Positions 1-55,037 of a stretch of DNA of 55,037 nt are shown piece after piece. The stretch is from NCBI GenBank assembly GCA_013152435.1, contig JAADGJ010000081.1, positions 1 through 55,037 on the forward strand. Reading direction: 5' to 3'. The stretch comes from Chloroflexota bacterium (GTDB taxonomy: Bacteria > Chloroflexota > Anaerolineae > DUEN01). Position 1 is the stretch's first letter; each line of letters opens with the position of its first letter. The notes below the pieces were generated by a model that was not told the origin of the DNA, did no database searches, and saw nothing but the letters and a program-made list of their open reading frames with translations. A program made the position numbers and the translations under genes.

Positions 1-98
1 GCCCCTGCCTGTCGCTTTTTCCTTCCACGGGCGGCCGCACCTGAAAGGGGAGGTGCGGGGCCACGTTTCCGTATCGCTTAACTTGATGCCAATAGGGC
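1..98 (+). repeat. Repeat A1: internally deleted copy of structured repeat family A
   Basis: The left part (hairpin CCGCACCT...AGGTGCGG at 35-58) and the right part (about 59-98, ending in a TATCGCTTAA-type end) match the longer copy at 54645-54937, but the middle is missing. The break lies exactly at an AGGTGCGG octamer (51-58). In the full copy this octamer occurs twice, 157 bp apart (54731 and 54888), so a deletion between short direct repeats explains it. The copy may begin before the window. No protein is expected here. Confidence 0.75.
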
Positions 99-119
99 GG
101 CCCGGTGGGCCGCCCCTAC
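93..119. repeat. REP-like palindrome
   Basis: Perfect 9-bp arms GGGCGGCCC (95-103) and GGGCCGCCC (107-115) surround a 3-nt loop, flanked by TA and TAC. Related GGGCG...CGCCC palindromes abut the repeat ends near 24701, 30069, 54530 and 54631, so this is an interspersed palindrome and not a gene-specific terminator. Confidence 0.7.
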
Positions 120-137
120 AGAACCCCGCTATTTCAT

Positions 138-395
138 AAGAGCGTGTCTGGAAATTTACCGGTAAGATGTCTGAGGGACCTCCTCAGTTACTAGCTCCAC
201 GGGGGAGGTGTGGAGGGGAGATCCCCTCCACGGAAACCCCACTTTTCCGGCCTGCACCTGCCTTTCTCGGCCCTTCCCGAAGGACCCGGGTCGAGGCCGG
301 ATAGCTCGAAGACGGAAGAAGGGCTTTTCCGGAGGAGCGGAGCCCCTCCGGGGCCTCCCCAGAGCAGGGATAACGGCATTTCCCAGGCACTCTCT
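138..395 (+). repeat. Repeat B1: MITE-like structured repeat, subfamily B
   Basis: About 258 bp, homologous to 24854-25095. The left end begins AGAGCGTGTCTGG. The right end, read inward on the other strand, begins AGAGAGTGCCTGGG, giving imperfect terminal inverted repeats. Inside are hairpins with arms GTGGAGGGG (210-218) and CCCCTCCAC (223-231), and a further CCGGAGG/CCTCCGG-type hairpin. The order of hairpins is the same as in repeat A. Short open frames across it on both strands follow the repeat and have no protein features, so I do not call genes. Between 396 and 522 I see only the upstream region of the heat-shock gene. Confidence 0.7.
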
Positions 396-522
396 AACGC
401 ATGACATATGCTCGTCTTATGATTTACTTATACACGATCACGAAAATAAATAAGGGAGGAACAGACGAGCGAAGCGTGGACAGGATCGCATTGGGCTGAG
501 GTGAGAGAAGGAGGTGATGGAC

Positions 523-24569: not shown

Positions 24570-24700
24570 GGGTTTTGTGTCGCCCTAGCCGAAATTTTAA
24601 GGTCTTTTCGCGGGGTACTGTAGTACTATTTATTGGATGATTTTCGAGTTTTGGAGAGGAAGAGAGGCTGATAGCCTCCCTCATGGGTGTTGCCGGGGCA

Positions 24701-24855
24701 GGGGCGCCGCATGAATCGCCCCATTCGCATCAACTTATAGATCTTCGCGTGGTGAAAGAAACATGCGGGCCGCGTCATTCGTTTCGGATAAGTAGGGGCG
24801 ACCCACTGGATCGCCCTTTCCTGAAGACCAGGGTTCATATGTTGCTTTATCTAAG
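24701..24855. repeat. Composite repeat with REP palindrome and 37-bp inverted copy
   Basis: 24713-24790 resembles 54541-54620 in direct orientation, sharing an ATTCGCATCAACTTAT block after a GGGGCG...CGCCCC palindrome. 24819-24855 is the reverse complement of 54576-54612 with one mismatch in 37. A second palindrome, GGGGCGACC...ATCGCCC, lies near 24797-24815. Together they form a nested island upstream of the dcw promoter. No gene is visible between 24570 and 25161. Confidence 0.7.
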
Positions 24856-25095
24856 AGCGTGTCTGAAAATTTACCGGCAAGATGTTTTGAGGGGTCTCCC
24901 TCAACGACCAGCTTCACAGGGGGAGGTGTGGAGGGGAGGACCCCTCCACGAAAATCCCACTTTTCTGGCCTGTACCTGCCTCTCTCGGCCCTTTCCGCAG
25001 GACCCAGGCCGAGGCCAGGCAGGTCGAGGGCAAAAGAAGGGCTTTTTCCGGAGGGGCTTCCCCTCCGAGCCATCCCAGAGAGGCGAGCATGCCCT
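24854..25095 (+). repeat. Repeat B2: second copy of structured subfamily B
   Basis: It begins AGAGCGTGTCTG like the copy at 138 and keeps the same internal order, including the hairpin GTGGAGGGG (24928-24936)/CCCCTCCAC (24941-24949) and CGGAGGGG/CCCCTCCG near 25045-25070. The right terminal repeat seen in B1 is not recognisable here, so the 3' end is approximate or degraded. Confidence 0.7.
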
Positions 25096-25565: not shown

Positions 25566-27077
25566 CTACCCCGCCTCGTCCTCGGGCGCCCGGCCGTAGA
25601 GCGCCGTCATCTCCGCCAGACGCGCCCGCATCCACGGCTGCACCTGCTCCCAGCGCAGCCGCCACGTCCAGTTGCCGGACGCCCGGCCGGGCGTGTTCAT
25701 GCGCGCCTCGGAGCCTAGGGAGAGCACATCCTGCATGGGCACGATGGCCATCTCCGCCACCGACGACAGGGCCGCCCGAATGAAGTCCCAGGCGACGTCC
25801 TGCCCATCCCGGGCCAGGTAACGACGCACGTGGTCCTGCACCTCCGGCAGCGCGCTGCGGTACCATCCGACCGTGGTGTCGTTGTCGTGCGTGCCCGTGT
25901 ATACGACGCAATGCGGGATGTGATTGTGGGGCAGGTATGGATGGCTGGCCGGCCCGCCGAAGGCGAACTGCAACACCCGCATGCCCGGGAACCCCAGACG
26001 ATCCCGTAACGCCTCCACCTCCGGCGTGATGAGGCCCAGATCCTCGGCGATGATGGGCAGCTCGCCCAGGGCGGCGCGGACGGCGGAGAACAACGCCTCG
26101 CCCGGGGCCTCCACCCAACGGCCGTTGACGGCCGTATCCTCCCCGGCCGGGACCTCCCAATACGCCTGAAACCCCCGAAAGTGGTCGATCCGGACGATGT
26201 CCACCATCTGGAACATAGCCCGAAAGCGTTCGATCCACCAGGCATACCCCTGCTGCGCCATCACGTCCCAGCGATAGAGCGGGTTGCCCCACAGCTGGCC
26301 GGTGGGACTGAAGTAGTCGGGCGGCACGCCGGCCACCACCGTAGGGCGCCCCTCCTCGTCCAGATGGAACAGATCCGGATTGGCCCACACGTCCGCGCTG
26401 TCGTAAGCCACGAAGATGGGAAGGTCGCCGATGATGCGCACACCCCGCTCATGGGCATAGGCGCGCAACGCCTGCCACTGCTCGAAGAAGCACCACTGCA
26501 CATACCGATGGAGCTGCATCTCCTCCGCCAGCCGGCCGGACCATTCGGCCACCGCCTCCGGCCGATGCGTGCGGATGGGTAGCGGCCACGCGTCCCAACG
26601 AGCGCCACCAAAGTGCGCCTTCAGCGCCATGAACAGCGCGAAATCATCCAGCCAGGCGGCCTGCTCCCGGCAGAACGCCTCGAAGCGGGCCCGCTGCTCA
26701 CCGCCACCATGCTCCCGGAAGTGGGCGAAGGACCGCTCCAGTAAGGGCATCTTCCACGCGATCACCTGGCCGTAGTCCACGCGGCCATCGGGGAAGGTGG
26801 GCGCATCATCCAGCGCGTCGGCGGGCAGGAGCCCGTGTGCCATCAGCCGCTCCGGGCTGATCAGCAGCGGGTTGCCGGCGAAGGCGGAGAGGGCCTGATA
26901 GGGCGAGTCGCCGTAGCCGGTGGGCCCCAAAGGCATCACCTGCCAGAGCCGCTGGCCCGTCTCCGCCAGGAAATCCACGAACCGACACGCCTCGTCGCCC
27001 AGATCGCCGATGCCGAAGCGCCCGGGCAGGGAAGTAGGATGCAGCAGGATGCCGCTGGATCGGGGCAGACCGAACAT
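25566..27077 (-). CDS. malQ: 4-alpha-glucanotransferase (GH77, MalQ/amylomaltase), copy 1
   Basis: Transfers alpha-1,4-glucan segments between maltodextrins in the cytoplasm, as part of maltose/glycogen use. About 503 residues, GH77 without extra N-terminal domains, as in thermophile enzymes. The N-terminus has S-G-I-L-L-H-P-T-S-L-P-G. Catalytic signatures are R-I-D-H-F-R-G-F (nucleophile Asp), I-A-E-D-L-G-L-I-T (acid/base Glu) and T-H-D-N-D-T-T-V-G-W (Asp). GGGAGG lies 7 nt before ATG 27077; ATG 27083 is too close to it. Copy 2 immediately precedes it, end to end. Confidence 0.95.
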   Translation of the reverse strand: MFGLPRSSGILLHPTSLPGRFGIGDLGDEACRFVDFLAETGQRLWQVMPLGPTGYGDSPYQALSAFAGNPLLISPERLMAHGLLPADALDDAPTFPDGRVDYGQVIAWKMPLLERSFAHFREHGGGEQRARFEAFCREQAAWLDDFALFMALKAHFGGARWDAWPLPIRTHRPEAVAEWSGRLAEEMQLHRYVQWCFFEQWQALRAYAHERGVRIIGDLPIFVAYDSADVWANPDLFHLDEEGRPTVVAGVPPDYFSPTGQLWGNPLYRWDVMAQQGYAWWIERFRAMFQMVDIVRIDHFRGFQAYWEVPAGEDTAVNGRWVEAPGEALFSAVRAALGELPIIAEDLGLITPEVEALRDRLGFPGMRVLQFAFGGPASHPYLPHNHIPHCVVYTGTHDNDTTVGWYRSALPEVQDHVRRYLARDGQDVAWDFIRAALSSVAEMAIVPMQDVLSLGSEARMNTPGRASGNWTWRLRWEQVQPWMRARLAEMTALYGRAPEDEAG

Positions 27078-27079
27078 GG

Positions 27080-28636
27080 TCATCCTCCCGTGTCGGCGTC
27101 CGATTCCAGCACATGGATCGAACGCCTGTGTGTGTGCGCGGCGGGGTTCCGGCCGCAGATGTCCGTCATATCCCGCAACGCCGCGGTCAGCTCATCGGTG
27201 AGCGCGCCCGGCGGACACCGCCACTGCCAGTTGCCGCCGAAGCTGCCCGGCAGGTTCATGCGGGCGTCGGAGCCCAGGCGGAGCAGGTCCTGCATGGGCG
27301 CCACCGCGGTATCGGCCACGGAGGTCCACGCCAGGTGCATCATGTCCCAGGCGATGTCGGAGCCGTCCGAGCGCAGATAGCGCAGCGCGAGGTCGCGCTC
27401 CTCTGGCGTGGAGCTATGCCGGAACCAGCCGACGGTGGTGTCGTTGTCGTGGGTGCCCGTATAGACGACGCAGTTGCGCGGGTAGTTATGGGGCAGATAG
27501 GGGTCGAATCCGTCCGTGCCGAAGGCGAACTGGAGCACCTTCATGCCCGGGAAGCCGAACTGATCCCGCAGGGCGGTCACCTCCGGCGTGATGAACCCCA
27601 GGTCCTCGGCGATGATGGGCAGTTCGCCCAGGGCGGCCAGCACCGTCTCGAAGAAGTCGGCCCCGGGCCCCTTGACCCAGCGGCCGTTGACCGCCGTATC
27701 CTCTCCGGCCGGGACCTCCCAGTACGCCTCGAAGCCGCGAAAGTGATCCACCCGGGCCACGTCCACCAGCCGGAAGATGGCCCGAAAGCGCTCGATCCAC
27801 CAGGCGTACCCGTTCTGCTTCATCACGTCCCATCGATAGAGCGGATTGCCCCACAGCTGGCCGGTGGCGCTGAAGTAGTCGGGTGGCACACCGGCCACCA
27901 CCGTGGGATGGGCCTCCTCGTCGAAATGGAACAGGTGCGGATTGGCCCAGGCGTCCGCGCTGTCATGGGCCACAAAGATGGGGATATCGCCGATGATGCG
28001 CACGCCCCGCTCGTTGGCGTACGCCTTCAGCGCCCGCCACTGACGGAAGAACAGCCACTGCTGGTAGCGATAGAAGCTCATGGCGTCCGCCAGACGGCCG
28101 ACGGCCTCCCGAATCGCCTCCGGCTGACGCATGCGCAGCGGCCGATCCCATTCCCACCACGGAGCGCCGCCGTGCTCATCCTTGAGCGCCATGAAGAGCG
28201 CGAAGTCCTCCAGCCACCCGGCCTCCTCCCGGCAGAACCGATCGAACTCGTCGCGCAGTTGCGGCGCGGCGCGCTGCTGGAAGTGATCGAAGGAGGCGCT
28301 CAGTAGCGCCCGCTTCCAGGGGATGACGCGGCCGAAGTCGACACGGCGCGGGTCGAACGTGGGGATATCGGCCAGAAGCCCGGGATCTAGCAGTTCCTCC
28401 TCGGCCAGCCGGTCGGGGCTGATCAGGAGCGGGTTCCCGGCGAAGGCCGAGAAGCACTGATAGGGGGAGTCGCCGTAGCCGGTGGGGCCCAGGGGCAGCA
28501 CCTGCCAGTAGCGCTGGCTCGCCGCGGCCAGGAAATCGACGAATCGGTAGGCGGCAGGGCCCAGATCGCCGATGCCGGGCGAGTCGGGAAGGCTGGTCGG
28601 ATGCAGCAGAACGCCGGAGGCGCGGGGAAAGCGCAT
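27080..28636 (-). CDS. malQ: 4-alpha-glucanotransferase (GH77, MalQ/amylomaltase), copy 2
   Basis: 518 residues, clearly paralogous to the next gene over its whole length, with long shared blocks such as G-E-D-T-A-V-N-G-R-W-V and L-G-P-T-G-Y-G-D-S-P-Y-Q. All GH77 catalytic motifs are intact: R-V-D-H-F-R-G-F, I-A-E-D-L-G-F-I-T and T-H-D-N-D-T-T-V-G-W. GGGAGG precedes ATG 28636; upstream in-frame codons (to 28738) lack homology. The copies differ in surface loops (for example the C-terminus), so different chain-length preferences are possible. The two genes form a tandem operon. Confidence 0.95.
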   Translation of the reverse strand: MRFPRASGVLLHPTSLPDSPGIGDLGPAAYRFVDFLAAASQRYWQVLPLGPTGYGDSPYQCFSAFAGNPLLISPDRLAEEELLDPGLLADIPTFDPRRVDFGRVIPWKRALLSASFDHFQQRAAPQLRDEFDRFCREEAGWLEDFALFMALKDEHGGAPWWEWDRPLRMRQPEAIREAVGRLADAMSFYRYQQWLFFRQWRALKAYANERGVRIIGDIPIFVAHDSADAWANPHLFHFDEEAHPTVVAGVPPDYFSATGQLWGNPLYRWDVMKQNGYAWWIERFRAIFRLVDVARVDHFRGFEAYWEVPAGEDTAVNGRWVKGPGADFFETVLAALGELPIIAEDLGFITPEVTALRDQFGFPGMKVLQFAFGTDGFDPYLPHNYPRNCVVYTGTHDNDTTVGWFRHSSTPEERDLALRYLRSDGSDIAWDMMHLAWTSVADTAVAPMQDLLRLGSDARMNLPGSFGGNWQWRCPPGALTDELTAALRDMTDICGRNPAAHTHRRSIHVLESDADTGG

Positions 28637-28756
28637 ATGGGACCTCCCGTGGGAGATGGGATGGATGACGAAGGACGAACGACGAAAAGATCGGCTTCGT
28701 CCGTAATTCGCGCCTTGTGAGGCGGGACCATAGCGCATTATAACACACCCTCATAG

Positions 28757-30081: not shown

Positions 30082-30367
30082 TCGCCCATATTGGCAAACT
30101 AAGCGATACGAAAGCGTGACCCCGCATCTCTGGGGTGGCTCGGAGGGGCTGCCGCCCTCCGAAGAACTCTACTTTCAGCCCCTCACCTGCCCCGTGGGGC
30201 CGGAGGCCACCGGCCAAAGCCCCAACCAGGCAGGTAAAGGGCGAGAAAAAGAGTTTTTCTGCGGAGGGGGGGGCTTCCCCTCCGCGCCTCCCCTTCCAGG
30301 TGCGACCGCCCGTGGAAGGAAAAAGCGACAGGCGGGGGCCTCGCTCATGCTGTTAAGTTGATCGCCT
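30082..30367 (-). repeat. Repeat A2: full-length structured repeat, family A, inverted
   Basis: About 286 bp, the reverse complement of the 54645-54937 copy. It includes the GCGGAGGGG/CCCCTCCGC hairpin (GCGGAGG and CCCCTCCGC around 30261-30285), the CACCTGCC...GGCAGGTG long hairpin and both ends (CGCCCATATTGG... and ...TTAAGTTGATCGCC). A GGGCG...CGCCC palindrome abuts the left end near 30069. It fills the 29925-30403 gap; I see no gene in that stretch. Confidence 0.75.
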
Positions 30368-31491: not shown

Positions 31492-31531
31492 CGCTCAGGA
31501 AGGATCTTCTATCGCCGCCTTCCCCCCCAAA

Positions 31532-31720
31532 GCGGCCGCCCCTGAAAGGGGAGGTGCGGAGGCGAAGCCCCTCCGCACAGAAAATGCTTTTTCCCGCCTT
31601 TACCTGCCTGATTGGGGTTTTAGTCTGCGGCATCCGGCCCCACGGGGCAGGTCAAGAGCTGAAAATGGGGTTCTTCGGAGGGGCTGGCGCCCCTCCGAAG
31701 AACCCCATGGATGCGAAGCC
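31532..31720 (+). repeat. Repeat A3: diverged core of family A with a perfect 20-bp hairpin
   Basis: Keeps the core hairpins (GCGGAGGCG/CCCCTCCGC near 31556-31576, ACCTGCC/GGCAGGT) but lacks the outer ends seen in the other copies. The last hairpin is extended to a perfect 20-bp stem (31665-31684 and 31689-31708) with a 4-nt loop. It lies between convergent genes and could stop transcription from both sides. Nothing else is visible in 31450-31767. Confidence 0.75.
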
Positions 31721-31767
31721 ACACCTCCATACCAGCATATAAGGCAACGCGACCTCGCCTCCACCCA

Positions 31768-49956: not shown

Positions 49957-50199
49957 ATGAGTGCTCGCCTGTTCTACATGATCAGCGGCACGGTCCTCAT
50001 CATCATCCCAATATCTACACTTTCGCTGCTGGAGGCCACCGTGGGCAAAGCCCTGCTGATCGCGGTTGCGGCGGGGATCTTGCGCACACAGTCGATCCTG
50101 GACGTCCCACGATACGCGTTCGCCGGGAGCGTCGTCATCGAGTTGTTCGGGCTTTGCGTCGGCATACTGCTTTTGAGCCGCGCTATTCTGCATCGCTGA
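49957..50199 (+). CDS. Small two-helix membrane protein, function unknown
   Basis: 80 residues with two hydrophobic stretches, about 5-28 (V-L-I-I-I-P-I-S-T-L) and about 50-75 (A-G-S-V-V-I-E-L-F-G-L-C-V-G-I-L-L-L). GGAGG lies 8-9 nt before ATG 49957; the in-frame start at 49816 is not supported. I recognise no family. It converges on the lamin-tail gene and overlaps its last 17 nt. It lies 208 nt downstream of the MITE. Confidence 0.6.
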   Translation: MSARLFYMISGTVLIIIPISTLSLLEATVGKALLIAVAAGILRTQSILDVPRYAFAGSVVIELFGLCVGILLLSRAILHR

Positions 50200-53100
50200 C
50201 GGCCGCCCCGATATCCGGAAGGTACTCGGGCATCGGCGCCAGATCCCACTCGTAACGGGGCAACAGCCGATATCCCCCCGCATCCCCCTCCCGCACCACG
50301 TACTGACTGACGATCCCAATCGCCGACCACCATTGGCCTCGCTCCACCCACGGGCGTTTCCATCCCAGGCTCTCGCGCACGTAGATCCGCACCTGGCCTC
50401 GTCCGTCATCCAACCGCAGCTCGCGAGGGCCGAACCCGACCACCCGCCCGACCACCATCGCCAACATGCCCTCGTACGCCTCCCCCAACCTATCCCCGCG
50501 CAGCAACACAGGGGCCAAAGGCGGCCCGCCTCCTATCCGGCGAAGGCCACCCGGGGGACGGATCTTCAACTCCCGCTCGCCGTGGAAATCGGCCAGCCGC
50601 CCGCATGCCTCCACCCAATCCCCCTCCCGCAGATCAGGCCATTCGCCGCGGCCCATGTACACCTGAATGCCGCCGCTGGGATCCTGCACATAGATGCTCC
50701 GGCCGAACACGCGGGGCGGAGCGGTCACCTGCCCGCGCACACACGCCAAATCGCCATCCGCTCGCATGCGCGCCCGGGCGATGGAGACGACCTGCACCGG
50801 CCGCGGCGTGGGCGTCGGCGTGGGCGGGGACGGCGTCGGCGACGCCACGGTCGCGGCCGATCGGGTCCCCTCATCGTGATGCGGCACCGCGCGCGGCGGA
50901 TTCGGCCGGCCGGGGGACGGGAGCAACCCCTCCACCCACTCCCCACTGCCATCCGGCTGACGCCCGAAGGAGCGATCATACCCCGGGCTACGGTCCCACA
51001 CGTAGCGATCCACCTCCCGGCCATCTGGCAACAGCAGACGCGCCTGATCGCCGCCGTTATTCAGCGCCACACCGGAGTCCCGGCGGAACACCACCAGGTA
51101 CGCGCCCGGCTCCAGGATCGTCCCCTCCGGAAACGTGTAGGGTGCACTCCCCGTCTCCGGGATGTCATCCAACATCCAGCCGGCCAGATCGACTGACATC
51201 TCCCCCACGTTGACTATCTCCACCCACTCGTCCTCCGCCGTGACCTCCCCATCTCCATCCCAATCTCGCTCGCGCGGCGCGGGCAAGATCTCGTTCAGGA
51301 ACACGATCCTGGGGGCCGGCGTGGGCGAGGGCGTCGGCGTGGGCGGCTGGTTCGGCCCCCCGGGCGAGGGTGGGTACACATCGGTCCATTCGCCTGTGCC
51401 ATCCACCGCCCGGGCGAAGACAGCATCCGGCCGGACCTTGAAGTAAACGAAGCGATCACGCAGGGAGCCATCCGGCGCCAACAGCCGCACCTCGTCGGCA
51501 TCGTTGTTCAGCGCCACGCCCGTCTGCCGCCGGAAGAACAGGATGTACCCGCCCGGCGCCAGCCAGGTCTCCGACGGGATCACGTAGAGTGGGCTGCCCC
51601 GATCCGGCGCATCATCCAGCATCCAGCCGCCCAGATCGATGGGCACCGCTCCCATGTTGTATAGCTCGATCCACTCATCCTCGGCCGTGACTGCGCCATC
51701 CCCGTCCCAGTCCACCGAGCGCGGCGCCGCCAGGATCTCGTTGAGGCGGATCACATCCGGCATGGGCGTCGATGTCGCCGTCGGCGTAGGCGTCGGCGGA
51801 GGAGGACGGTTCGGCCCGCCGGGAGAGGGAGGATAATCCGTCACCCACGGCCCCACGCCGTCCACGCTGCGGCTGAAGGACCCATCAGGTGGTGGATCCT
51901 CGTAGGCGAACGCGTCCACCACCGTGCCATCAGGCGCCAGCAGCCGGACCTGATCGGCGTCATTGTTCAACGCCAGGCCGGTAACGTTCCGAAAGAAGAG
52001 GACATACCCACCCGCTAACAGCAGCGTCCCCGGCGGTATCACATAGGGATCGCTTCCCCCCTCCGCCGCGTCGTCCAGCGCCCAGCCGCCCAGGTCCACG
52101 GGCTGGGGGCCGGGATTGTACAGCTCGATCCACTCATCCTCGGCCGTGACCGCGCCATCCCCGTCCCAGTCCACGGCGGCCGGGCGCGGCAGCAGCTCGT
52201 TCAAGGCGACGGGCGGCCATCCTCCCGGCGGCGGCGTGGGAGGAGCGCCCGGCGATGGCGTCGGCGCGGGCGTCACCGTCGGCGTCGATGTCGGCTCCGA
52301 CAGCCCCGGGCCGCCCGGCGACGGGTGATCGCGCTCCACCCAATCCTCGGCGCGCCCCGTGTCCCGACCCACGGGCTCCCGCTCCAGCGAATGCCCGGCG
52401 GCCGGCGCCCGCGGGGCCGGGTCCAGCTCGCTCACGTCATCGCCGTAGGAGAGGGCATCCACGGGCATCCCGGCCGGATCGTACAGCACCAGGCGGTCGC
52501 CTCGATTCCCGAGCCCACTGCCGATCGCGCCGTCACCCACCGAGATCAGCGCGCCGGAGAAGTCGGGGAAGTTCTCCCGGAAGCGCTCCTCATCCGCGGC
52601 GAGGACGACGAACGATCGCGGGGGGAGCTCAATCGAGGGCAGCGGATCGGAGGATCGATTGTCGGCGATCGACCAGCCCGTCAGGGAGATCGTCCGGCCG
52701 CCCGGATTATAGATCTCCACCCACTCCCAGGGTGCATCGGCACCGGGCTGCGGCGGGTTGGGCTGAACCTCGTGGATCAGCAGCGTCCCCGGAGGCACGG
52801 GCGTCGGCGTGGGTTCTCGGGGGCGCCAGCCGAAATCGATCCCCACGCGCACCTCGCCCGCCGCCAGTCGCACGGTGCGCTCCTCGGGCGTCGTGCTCTC
52901 ATACCCCTCCAATGCGGCGACGGATACTCTATAGACGCCAGCTGGGAGCTCGTAGAAGCCGTACCACCCGCTGGGGAAGGTCCTGATGTCGGCTCCCGTG
53001 CTCAGGCGGACCTGGCCCCCCTCAATCCCCGGTTCGGCGCCCGGCTGGCGACGGCCGTCGCCGTTGCGGTCCAGGAAGACGTAACCCTGGATGCTGCCCA

Positions 53101-54388
53101 CCGAAGCGGACGCCGAAGGGGTGGCCGTCGGCGTCGAAGTCGGAGTCGGCGTGGGGGCAACGGTGGCCGCGGGGCCGGGCGGTGCCAGCCGTCCGGGGGA
53201 GGGCGGGAAACGGTCGGCCCAATCCGCCGCGGTGTCGGTGTCCACCCCCGGCGGCTCCCGCTCCAGCGAGTGCCCGGCCGCCACATCCGGCGCGGGCGGG
53301 GCGAGCCAGGCGGCGTCATCCCCGTACGAGAGCGCGTCCACCACCGCGCCGGCGGGGTCCAACAAGGCCAGTCGGTCGCCGTCGTTCGCCAATCCGCCGC
53401 CGATCCTCCCATCGGGCATCGGGATCAACGCTCCATCAAAGTCGGGGAAATCCCCGCGAAACGCCTCGACGTCGGCGGCCACCACCAGGAGCCCACCCGC
53501 CGGGAGGACCACATCGGGCAGGACATCCTCGGCGGTGTTGTCCACCAGACGCCATCCGGCCAGGGAGATCGGCCCCGGCCCGGGATTGTACAGCTCCACC
53601 CATTCATGGGCGGCATCCGGCCCCGGCTGCGACGCGTCGTAGAGCAACTCATGGATGAGCACGCGCCCAGGCGGCACACTCGTCGCCTCGGCCGTGGGGG
53701 AGGCGGTCGCCGTCGGCGTGAGGGTGGGCGTCGGCGACGGGGACGGGGGCTCGGCGGGCGTCGCTGTAGGGGTGAGCGAAGAGGGCCACGCCGAGTTCGG
53801 GCCGCCCGGGGTGCCGTTGATGGGCTGTCCGTCGGCGTCCAGCCCACGCCGGCGCACGCCATCATTGCTGGCCCAATTGTCATCGCGGTCGGGCGCGGCC
53901 GGATCGATTCGCTCCATGCTGAGATAGTCCGGCCCGGCGCTGCCGGCCGGCCAGGCGCCCCCATCCGCGTTAGCGCTGTCCACCACCCGGCCGCTCGCGT
54001 CGACGAGCAACAGTTGCTCGCCGCGATTGCTCAGCGCCCCGGTGTACACGATATCCGCGGGCATATCGCGAACCGTCTCGTCGTCGCTGCGCTCCAGCAA
54101 CAGAAAGGCGCCCGGCTCCAGCACGCCAGCCAGGTCGATGGTCGGCGTCCCATCGGCCGAGCGCAACTGCCAGCCGGACAGATCGACGGGGACATCGCCC
54201 GCGTTGTACAGCTCGATCCACTCATCGCGGCTGCTGGCCGCCGTCCCGCCCCACGCCACCTCGCTGATGACCACGCCGGGGCCATCGGCAATCGCCGCCG
54301 GGGAGAGAAAGCCGCCCCATGCGCTTCCAAGGGCCACACACGCCAGACATGCGATCCGGAGGAAGGAGGAGATACGACGCCTCATCAT
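50183..54388 (-). CDS. Secreted multidomain protein with six lamin-tail domains, an SdrD-B-like domain and an OB-fold-like end
   Basis: 1,401 residues from ATG 54388 (next ATG 54385; weak Shine-Dalgarno). A signal peptide covers about residues 1-34, ending A-I-A. Lamin-tail domains (LTD) then lie near 37-160, 243-375, 535-670, 726-850, 878-1005 and 1027-1155, each with an E-W-I/V-E-L-Y-N core. An SdrD-B-like beta-sandwich lies at about 430-520. Pro/Thr-rich linkers (runs of T-P) separate them, and an OB-fold-like region is at about 1197-1362. LTDs 4-6 carry a D-W-D-G-D-G-x-V-T-A-E-D-E loop resembling an EF-hand/dockerin calcium site. Bacterial LTDs are often found in extracellular proteins near nucleases; no nuclease motif is seen. 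Likely cell-surface or extracellular; function unknown. Confidence 0.88.
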   Translation of the reverse strand: MMRRRISSFLRIACLACVALGSAWGGFLSPAAIADGPGVVISEVAWGGTAASSRDEWIELYNAGDVPVDLSGWQLRSADGTPTIDLAGVLEPGAFLLLERSDDETVRDMPADIVYTGALSNRGEQLLLVDASGRVVDSANADGGAWPAGSAGPDYLSMERIDPAAPDRDDNWASNDGVRRRGLDADGQPINGTPGGPNSAWPSSLTPTATPAEPPSPSPTPTLTPTATASPTAEATSVPPGRVLIHELLYDASQPGPDAAHEWVELYNPGPGPISLAGWRLVDNTAEDVLPDVVLPAGGLLVVAADVEAFRGDFPDFDGALIPMPDGRIGGGLANDGDRLALLDPAGAVVDALSYGDDAAWLAPPAPDVAAGHSLEREPPGVDTDTAADWADRFPPSPGRLAPPGPAATVAPTPTPTSTPTATPSASASVGSIQGYVFLDRNGDGRRQPGAEPGIEGGQVRLSTGADIRTFPSGWYGFYELPAGVYRVSVAALEGYESTTPEERTVRLAAGEVRVGIDFGWRPREPTPTPVPPGTLLIHEVQPNPPQPGADAPWEWVEIYNPGGRTISLTGWSIADNRSSDPLPSIELPPRSFVVLAADEERFRENFPDFSGALISVGDGAIGSGLGNRGDRLVLYDPAGMPVDALSYGDDVSELDPAPRAPAAGHSLEREPVGRDTGRAEDWVERDHPSPGGPGLSEPTSTPTVTPAPTPSPGAPPTPPPGGWPPVALNELLPRPAAVDWDGDGAVTAEDEWIELYNPGPQPVDLGGWALDDAAEGGSDPYVIPPGTLLLAGGYVLFFRNVTGLALNNDADQVRLLAPDGTVVDAFAYEDPPPDGSFSRSVDGVGPWVTDYPPSPGGPNRPPPPTPTPTATSTPMPDVIRLNEILAAPRSVDWDGDGAVTAEDEWIELYNMGAVPIDLGGWMLDDAPDRGSPLYVIPSETWLAPGGYILFFRRQTGVALNNDADEVRLLAPDGSLRDRFVYFKVRPDAVFARAVDGTGEWTDVYPPSPGGPNQPPTPTPSPTPAPRIVFLNEILPAPRERDWDGDGEVTAEDEWVEIVNVGEMSVDLAGWMLDDIPETGSAPYTFPEGTILEPGAYLVVFRRDSGVALNNGGDQARLLLPDGREVDRYVWDRSPGYDRSFGRQPDGSGEWVEGLLPSPGRPNPPRAVPHHDEGTRSAATVASPTPSPPTPTPTPRPVQVVSIARARMRADGDLACVRGQVTAPPRVFGRSIYVQDPSGGIQVYMGRGEWPDLREGDWVEACGRLADFHGERELKIRPPGGLRRIGGGPPLAPVLLRGDRLGEAYEGMLAMVVGRVVGFGPRELRLDDGRGQVRIYVRESLGWKRPWVERGQWWSAIGIVSQYVVREGDAGGYRLLPRYEWDLAPMPEYLPDIGAAVSDAE

Positions 54389-54529
54389 GCCGCCCCACCC
54401 TCGAACACGCGAACAGGATCGGCCAAACCGAGGAGAAAAGCACGCGACGCTTCCCATTGCAGGCAAGGACGAGGATGCCCCATTGTCCGGATGAGAAGTC
54501 ACTGGGAACTCGCGAATTCGCTCCAACAG

Positions 54530-54650
54530 GGGCGATTCGTGAATCGCCCTATTCGCATCAACTTATTGATCTTCGCTTAGATAAAGCAACATATGAATCC
54601 TGGTCTTCAGGAAACAGCGGGATTCTGTAGGGGCGACCGGCCGGTCGCCC
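54530..54650 (+). repeat. REP palindromes and 37-bp repeat upstream of repeat A4
   Basis: Palindrome GGGCGATTC-gt-GAATCGCCC (54530-54549), then a block matching 24713-24790, the 37-bp segment (54576-54612) that is inverted at 24819-24855, and a perfect 20-bp palindrome of GGGCGACCGG and its complement (54631-54650). No gene is seen between 54389 and 55037. Confidence 0.7.
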
Positions 54651-54937
54651 TATTCGCATCAACTGAACAGCATGGGCGAGGCCCTCGCCTATCGCTTTTT
54701 CCCTTCACAGGCGGTCGCACCTGAAAGGGGAGGTGCGGAGGGGAAGCCCCTCCGCAGAAAAACTCTTTTTCTCGCCTTTCACCTGCCTGGTTGGGGCTTT
54801 GGCCGGTGGCCTCCGGCCCCACGGGGCAGGTGAGGGGCTGAAGATAGATTTCTTCGGAGGGGCTGCCTCCCCTCCGATCCACCCCAGAGGTGCGGGGCCA
54901 TGCTCCCGTATCGCTTAATTTGATACCAATAGGGCGA
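54645..54937 (+). repeat. Repeat A4: full-length structured repeat, family A
   Basis: About 293 bp. The left end CGCCCTATTCGCATCAACT and the right end, read inward, CGCCCTATTGGTATCAAAT are inverted repeats with a few mismatches. Inside: CGCACCT/AGGTGCG; GCGGAGGGG (54735-54743)/CCCCTCCGC (54747-54755); a long hairpin TCACCTGCC...GGCAGGTGA (about 54778-54832); and CGGAGGGG/CCCCTCCG near 54856-54875. This is the reference copy for A1-A3. Confidence 0.78.
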
Positions 54938-54969
54938 TTCGTGAATCGTCCCTTTTCCGATCTGATTTG

Positions 54970-55037
54970 GATGGACCGGGCCAGGCGAGGCGGGTAAGGG
55001 GCTAAAACGACGCGGTTCCTCCTGAGGGGCTGCGCCC
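54970..55037 (+). repeat. Partial further copy of repeat A, cut by the window end
   Basis: GGGCCAGGCGAGGCGGG... followed by AGGGGCTAAAA and GAGGGGCTGCGCCC matches the second half of family A (compare 31640-31690), diverged. It runs off the window end. Confidence 0.5.

Follow-up and report, generated by a model that had tools for sequence, protein, structure and literature searches.

Small non-coding mobile elements with a common cloverleaf core under different transposon ends in a Chloroflexota genome

The interspersed repeats of the Chloroflexota genome analysed here number in the hundreds; they are small non-coding pieces of mobile DNA and fall into two or more kinds, of which two are designated family A and family B. 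With a probability of roughly 0.8, they are non-autonomous selfish MITEs in which a common core has been joined to different transposase ends. The ends of the elements, their target duplications, the common core and the insertion sequences with matching ends identified in relatives are directly observed.

Copies in the window and in the draft genome

The window, a stretch of 55,037 nucleotides, forms contig C81 in a draft assembly that comprises 149 contigs and 4.97 Mb. Many of the contigs, C81 included, start or stop inside MITE repeats. The closest named protein relatives of the window were identified in Anaerolineae MAGs, with AUK314 showing 80% identity over the GH77 enzyme. The repeats are far more numerous in the genome than the window alone suggests, with no fewer than 40 copies each of A and B. 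A total of 81 repeat clusters were counted in 830 kb of contiguous sequence, among them about 40 near-complete copies of B and about 10 of A, and the whole genome contains 295 matches to the B-end motif and 128 to the A-end motif. According to a crude gene finder, 40 of 65 copies are intergenic, while non-coding DNA makes up only about 14% of the sequence. Like MITEs, the elements are thus numerous and interspersed; they are also short, carry terminal inverted repeats without a transposase gene and are flanked by target-site duplications.

The copies identified in the window are listed in Table 1. An initial annotation of this DNA had reported family B at 138-395 and 24854-25095 and family A at 30082-30367, 31532-31720 and 54645-54937; all five were recovered, with the limits of B1 and A3 corrected to those in the table. 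Two further copies of that list were described differently there. The copy at 1-98 is a remnant of A, but its whole core is deleted, so that it lacks both core hairpins, and the partial copy at 54970, which had been assigned to A, belongs instead to another end type, being a truncated copy with a C-like core.

Table 1. Repeat elements and their parts in the window
Feature	Position	Strand	Evidence
B1, full-length family B MITE, TIR GAGCGTGTCTG.../...CAGGCACTCTC	140..394	+	238 bits with B profile (1-256)
Left 3-bp target duplication TAA of B1	137..139	.	TNA duplication in 28/51 B copies
Right 3-bp target duplication TAA of B1	395..397	.	sequence
B1 cloverleaf core	202..360	+	CM R1, 152 bits; B1 among copies building R1
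B2, family B, left end intact (TAA at 24852-24854), right end lost	24855..25083	+	
B2 cloverleaf core	24920..25076	+	CM R1, 166 bits; B2 among copies building R1
A3, full-length family A MITE, TIR ATTCGCATCAACTGAA.../...TTAATTTGATACCAAT	54652..54930	+	301 bits
A3 cloverleaf core, alike on both strands	54727..54885	+	B-only R1: 78 bits (+), 82 bits (-)
Palindrome GGGGCGACCGGCCGGTCGCCC, left edge of A3	54630..54650	.	
GGGGCGATTCGTGAATCGCCC, outer direct repeat matching 54932-54952; encloses A-ended element and A3	54529..54549	.	
GGGCGATTCGTGAATCGTCCC, right direct repeat of block enclosing A-ended element and A3	54932..54952	.	
Short core-less element with A left end, immediately before A3	54551..54629	+	D12 repeat partner at 24699-24764
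A2, family A, outermost bases degraded	30092..30362	-	260 bits
A4, family A core copy, ends lost	31516..31731	+	153 bits
A1, A remnant truncated by contig start, core deleted	1..99	+	
Partial core, other end type (C-like), truncated by contig end	54971..55037	+	comparison with family C copies

An arrangement like that at 54529-54952 was also observed on another contig of the analysis (L006, C3, 1506-2050), where two A-ended elements adjoin within one palindromic direct-repeat pair, which suggests end-to-end or nested insertion. Among the neighbouring genes, an HSP20 gene (514-1071) lies directly downstream of B1 and is followed by a frame resembling a second HSP20 (1134-1565). The adjacent minus-strand frames at 25566-27083, which codes for a GH77 4-alpha-glucanotransferase, and 27080-28738 look like a tandem gene pair, since their DNA shares repeated blocks at 78-83%. 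A minus-strand frame of 1447 aa (50183-54526) contains six lamin tail domain repeats (Pfam LTD).

Ends, target duplications and related insertion sequences

Family B copies, aligned in orientation, are about 256 bp long, begin with GAGYGTGTCTGA and finish with its inverse. Identical 3-bp TNA target duplications were identified on both sides of 28 of the 51 copies. The end motif occurs about 295 times in the host genome, 30 times in a sister species and about 176 times in G015 (another family), and the B-ended elements retrieved from G015 and G050 have unrelated interiors. Such abundant short B-ended elements with TNA duplications but other interiors in genomes of the class were seen at L251 and L259 in G015 and at L239 and L250 in G050. 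A search for the exact B-end pattern in named genomes gave no match. In the relative G018, an 837-bp element (L232) was identified with ends of the B kind, GAGCCTGTCTGAAAA, a TTA/TTA duplication and transposase frames, broken or separate, that match DUF4096 (9.7e-13) and DDE_Tnp_1 (2.6e-6). Family B thus has its ends and its TNA duplication in common with an IS5-type transposase gene. It resembles IS5-family MITEs of the IS1031/ISL2 type in its GAG... ends, 3-bp TNA duplication and non-coding nature; the assignment to this subgroup is presumed from what is generally known of TNA duplications. B would be mobilised in trans by an IS5-type transposase that produces the 3-bp TNA duplication. While the ends of L232 and B are alike, the cloverleaf core of B is not visible in L232.

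Family A copies are about 280 bp long and have ends of the form ATTSGYATCAA, starting with ATTCGCATCAAC and finishing with TTGATACCAAT. Copies of 148-158 bp were also identified, which carry an internal deletion between two GGAGGGG hairpins. The flanks consist of copy-specific direct repeats of about 20-21 bp, mostly GC-rich palindromes with GG at the start and CC at the end. For 14 of 21 full copies, the two flanks match at 16-20 of 20 bases, compared to a mean of 9.0 of 20 after re-pairing of the flanks by shuffling, where 3% reach 14. Over 20 duplications, namely those of 19 A-type copies and of the L205 element described below, the mean palindrome score was 3.95 against 2.70 in shuffles that kept the three end bases, and none of 500 shuffles scored as high.

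A pattern search in relatives revealed in G025 an element, L205, with ATAGGTATCAAGTTAAG ends 1,428 bp apart and GGTGCTCATCATCGGGCACCC on both flanks. Its protein of 441 aa is an IS4-family transposase, matching the NCBIfam IS4 model NF033592 with 196 bits against a cut-off of 115. The ends of A are thereby common with those of an IS4-family element, and A is comparable to IS4-family MITEs. However, according to a review of the IS4 family, its members duplicate about 10 bp, and long, variable repeats are reported for only two IS1634-family elements (PMC2266710), so that the duplication of about 20-21 bp, often palindromic, found in both the A copies and L205 is unusual. The doubled and mostly palindromic duplication is one of two unusual points of the elements, the other being the common core. 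In G014, a 43% relative with similar ends was identified, which is flanked by two different palindromes. At L228 of the same genome (about 2780-2950), the right end of an IS4-like element is tandemly duplicated along with the flanking palindrome. A would be mobilised in trans by an IS4-type transposase duplicating a GC-rich, often palindromic target or stem-loop of about 20-21 bp.

Two other known systems are comparable to family A. IS1272, like A, targets stem-loop sequences or inverted repeats, but it replaces the target without duplication, whereas A duplicates it (PMC5678879). GTAG repeats have been reported in Chloroflexi, and GC-rich palindromes, some of them preceded by GTAG, lie beside several A copies, as in GTAG REP/RAYT systems; in contrast to these repeats, A and B are 250-290 bp long with long inverted ends and duplications (PMC3733652).

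Elements that combine ends matching A or B with a transposase were identified only in the relatives G025 (A) and G018 (B). In the host draft, with its 149 contigs and many breaks in repeats, neither an insertion sequence with A or B ends nor an A-type transposase was found. Two host matches to DDE_Tnp_1 were rejected as partners of A or B: L101 is an IS5 element with other ends, CTAGAAGCTGTTATGCACTT, and L102 is an IS701-type element beside a B copy. That B copy (L102, 527-885) carries an extra internal insert, and the IS701-type element abuts its right end, sharing the TAA. An empty site for B2 was sought in AUK314, the nearest named relative, where no flank homology was found. The suggestion of the initial annotation that the fold might be kept by a mobilising machinery came close, since the repeats are transposon-like, with terminal inverted repeats and target duplications.

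Pairing and loop inversion in the cloverleaf core

Between the unlike ends, a core of about 160 nt follows one plan. GGGGAGG and CCTCCCC form its closing stem; the other parts are a hairpin, NNGGAGGGG, a long central stem in which ACCTGCC/GGCAGGT enclose another hairpin, and the second of the GGAGGGG hairpins. The initial annotation had noticed a common order of hairpins in A and B in spite of their differing sequences, and this order was confirmed. The second-hairpin arms had been read correctly as GCGGAGGGG/CCCCTCCGC in A and GTGGAGGGG/CCCCTCCAC in both B copies, as had the T-A pair flanking the last hairpin of A, which is C-G in B1. Compared to shuffled sequences, the elements are more stably folded, with z values of -7.0 for A (54652-54930) and -2.8 for B1 as DNA. 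Mixed MAFFT alignments of A, B, C and D cores were rejected, because the hairpin arms came out of register; a covariance model, R1, was therefore built from ten copies of B only and then used to align the other cores. The first iterated profiles, which joined A and B via the core, were likewise dropped in favour of sets defined by their ends. With R1, both strands of the core were shown to fold alike, and a cloverleaf is the fold expected of this quasi-palindromic core in single-stranded DNA or in RNA, whichever the sense.

The compensatory changes had been taken as a sign that the fold is kept by selection. They are real between families, but by themselves they do not prove selection on an RNA fold, since correction at the DNA level can give the same pattern. 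In 54 diverse cores, the commonest pair accounts for 69.7% of the cells, double changes for 12.8% and G-U for 8.2%, and double changes drop to 3-4% when the partners are slid by 1-3 columns, in an alignment that was fitted to the structure, mixes strands for A and so leans towards pairing. The proposed covariation check was borne out across these cores, but not within family B, where 52 copies aligned without structure gave 10 double changes against 7.9 expected under independence. Covariation is thus strong between families and species, while within B there is no excess over independence and no clear G-U preference.

These counts bear on the rather unlikely reading that the MITEs have spread a structured RNA with a function, namely the core, and that selection on this RNA keeps its pairing. 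It would account for the strong covariation between families and species and for the lower variation of the B stems, which is 0.063 at paired and 0.154 at unpaired core positions and thus 2.4 times less. An RNA under selection is expected to show a clear excess of G-U in its hairpins. Among the half-changed pairs of the 52 B copies, G-U was counted 161 times and A-C 112 times overall, and the common half-changes of the central stem favour G-U (124 against 59), but the perfect hairpins together with the closing stem gave 37 G-U against 53 A-C, and half-changes seen only once or twice were nearly balanced (50 against 40). The lower stem variation and the lean of the central stem towards G-U leave room for an RNA role. 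Against it stand also the missing excess of double changes within B, the presence of the core in just 5 of 298 class genomes, and the result that no Rfam family matched at its gathering score, the best weak match reaching 29.6 bits against a cut-off of 96.5.

The equal folding of the two strands and the free flipping of the loops argue against RNA selection as well. When the orientation of each loop was fixed by the arms and the element ends, loops were found in both orientations. In the second hairpin of B, CGGAG was counted 11 times and CTCCG 9 times; in A, the first hairpin has AAG in 12 and CTT in 5 copies, and the second has CGGTAG and CTACCG in 4 and 3, and CGGCAG and CTGCCG in 4 copies each. 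In four sets of hairpins, 31 of 46, 24 of 36, 17 of 27 and 15 of 26 copies have a loop with a reverse-complement partner, while loops with a partner that is reversed only were absent from all four sets, and those with a partner that is complemented only numbered 9, 0, 0 and 0. Template switching is recognised by the inverted loops it leaves, and it can also write compensatory changes into stems during DNA replication; this was described for RNA genes across species, whereas the present case concerns many copies of one element in a single genome (PMC8794818). The loops in both orientations are a DNA-level signature, of template switching or of cruciform inversion. Together with the likeness of the core on both strands, they indicate that the fold has an effect in DNA, at least on mutation. 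The arms may at least partly have been kept complementary by template switching or cruciform inversion, either of which would also flip the loops.

Spread of the core among end types and genomes

The same core was identified under two further end types. Type C (GGTAGTGTATCC...TGGTGGAAAT) is present in the host, and the sister species has a copy that resembles it. Type D (GGTAGC...CTTAACCGTGG) occurs in host and sister species alike, and also in G003 and G021; the duplications of C and D may be 8 bp long. Among 298 genomes of the class, R1 detected the core only in G000, G001, G003, G021 and, weakly, G284, while the other 293 gave no match at E 0.001, and 400 genomes of the phylum added only short matches of about 80-140 nt in G319 and G500.

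It is quite improbable that the cores of A and B are non-homologous and have converged on similar GC-rich hairpins. The identity of the A and B consensus cores is modest, at 68% over 169 nt when they are compared in one sense and 79% over 66 nt in the opposite one, and the arms are of low complexity, as convergence would have it. However, R1, although built on B alone, gives 44-100 bits for the cores of A, C and D, and unpaired and linker stretches are alike too, for example GGCAGGT..A.GGGC.GAAAA...TTTCTT. The reach of R1 across end types and its rarity among genomes suggest that the cores are of common origin and make a household RNA unlikely. That the copies are merely decayed ends of a known insertion sequence is highly improbable, since the core is common to four end types and is visible neither in the sequence of L205 nor in the frames of L232, even though relatives have IS4- and IS5-type elements with matching ends.

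For MITEs with a common core, the core would have been joined to new ends repeatedly, giving A, B, C and D; the presumed route is nested insertion, or else recombination at the GGAGGGG hairpins, which recur in the core. The core may aid transposition, protect the element or be no more than ballast. In a limited literature search, no bacterial MITEs with a common interior but differing ends were found. A bolder version, which is conceivable but doubtful, makes the core a module that unrelated end systems take up because it helps them to move or to survive; it might do so as a small RNA, for example, or by folding as DNA at the replication fork. In this version, the IS4-like group of A also recognises stem-loops and duplicates them whole, at about two helical turns.

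The elements thus present one core under several transposon end types within a single genome. The A-type duplications, at twice the described length and mostly palindromic, would call for a new geometry of target joining. With many oriented hairpin copies in this one genome (28-52 full copies per family were used), loop inversion becomes countable, and the families offer a natural test of how far template switching in DNA mimics RNA covariation.
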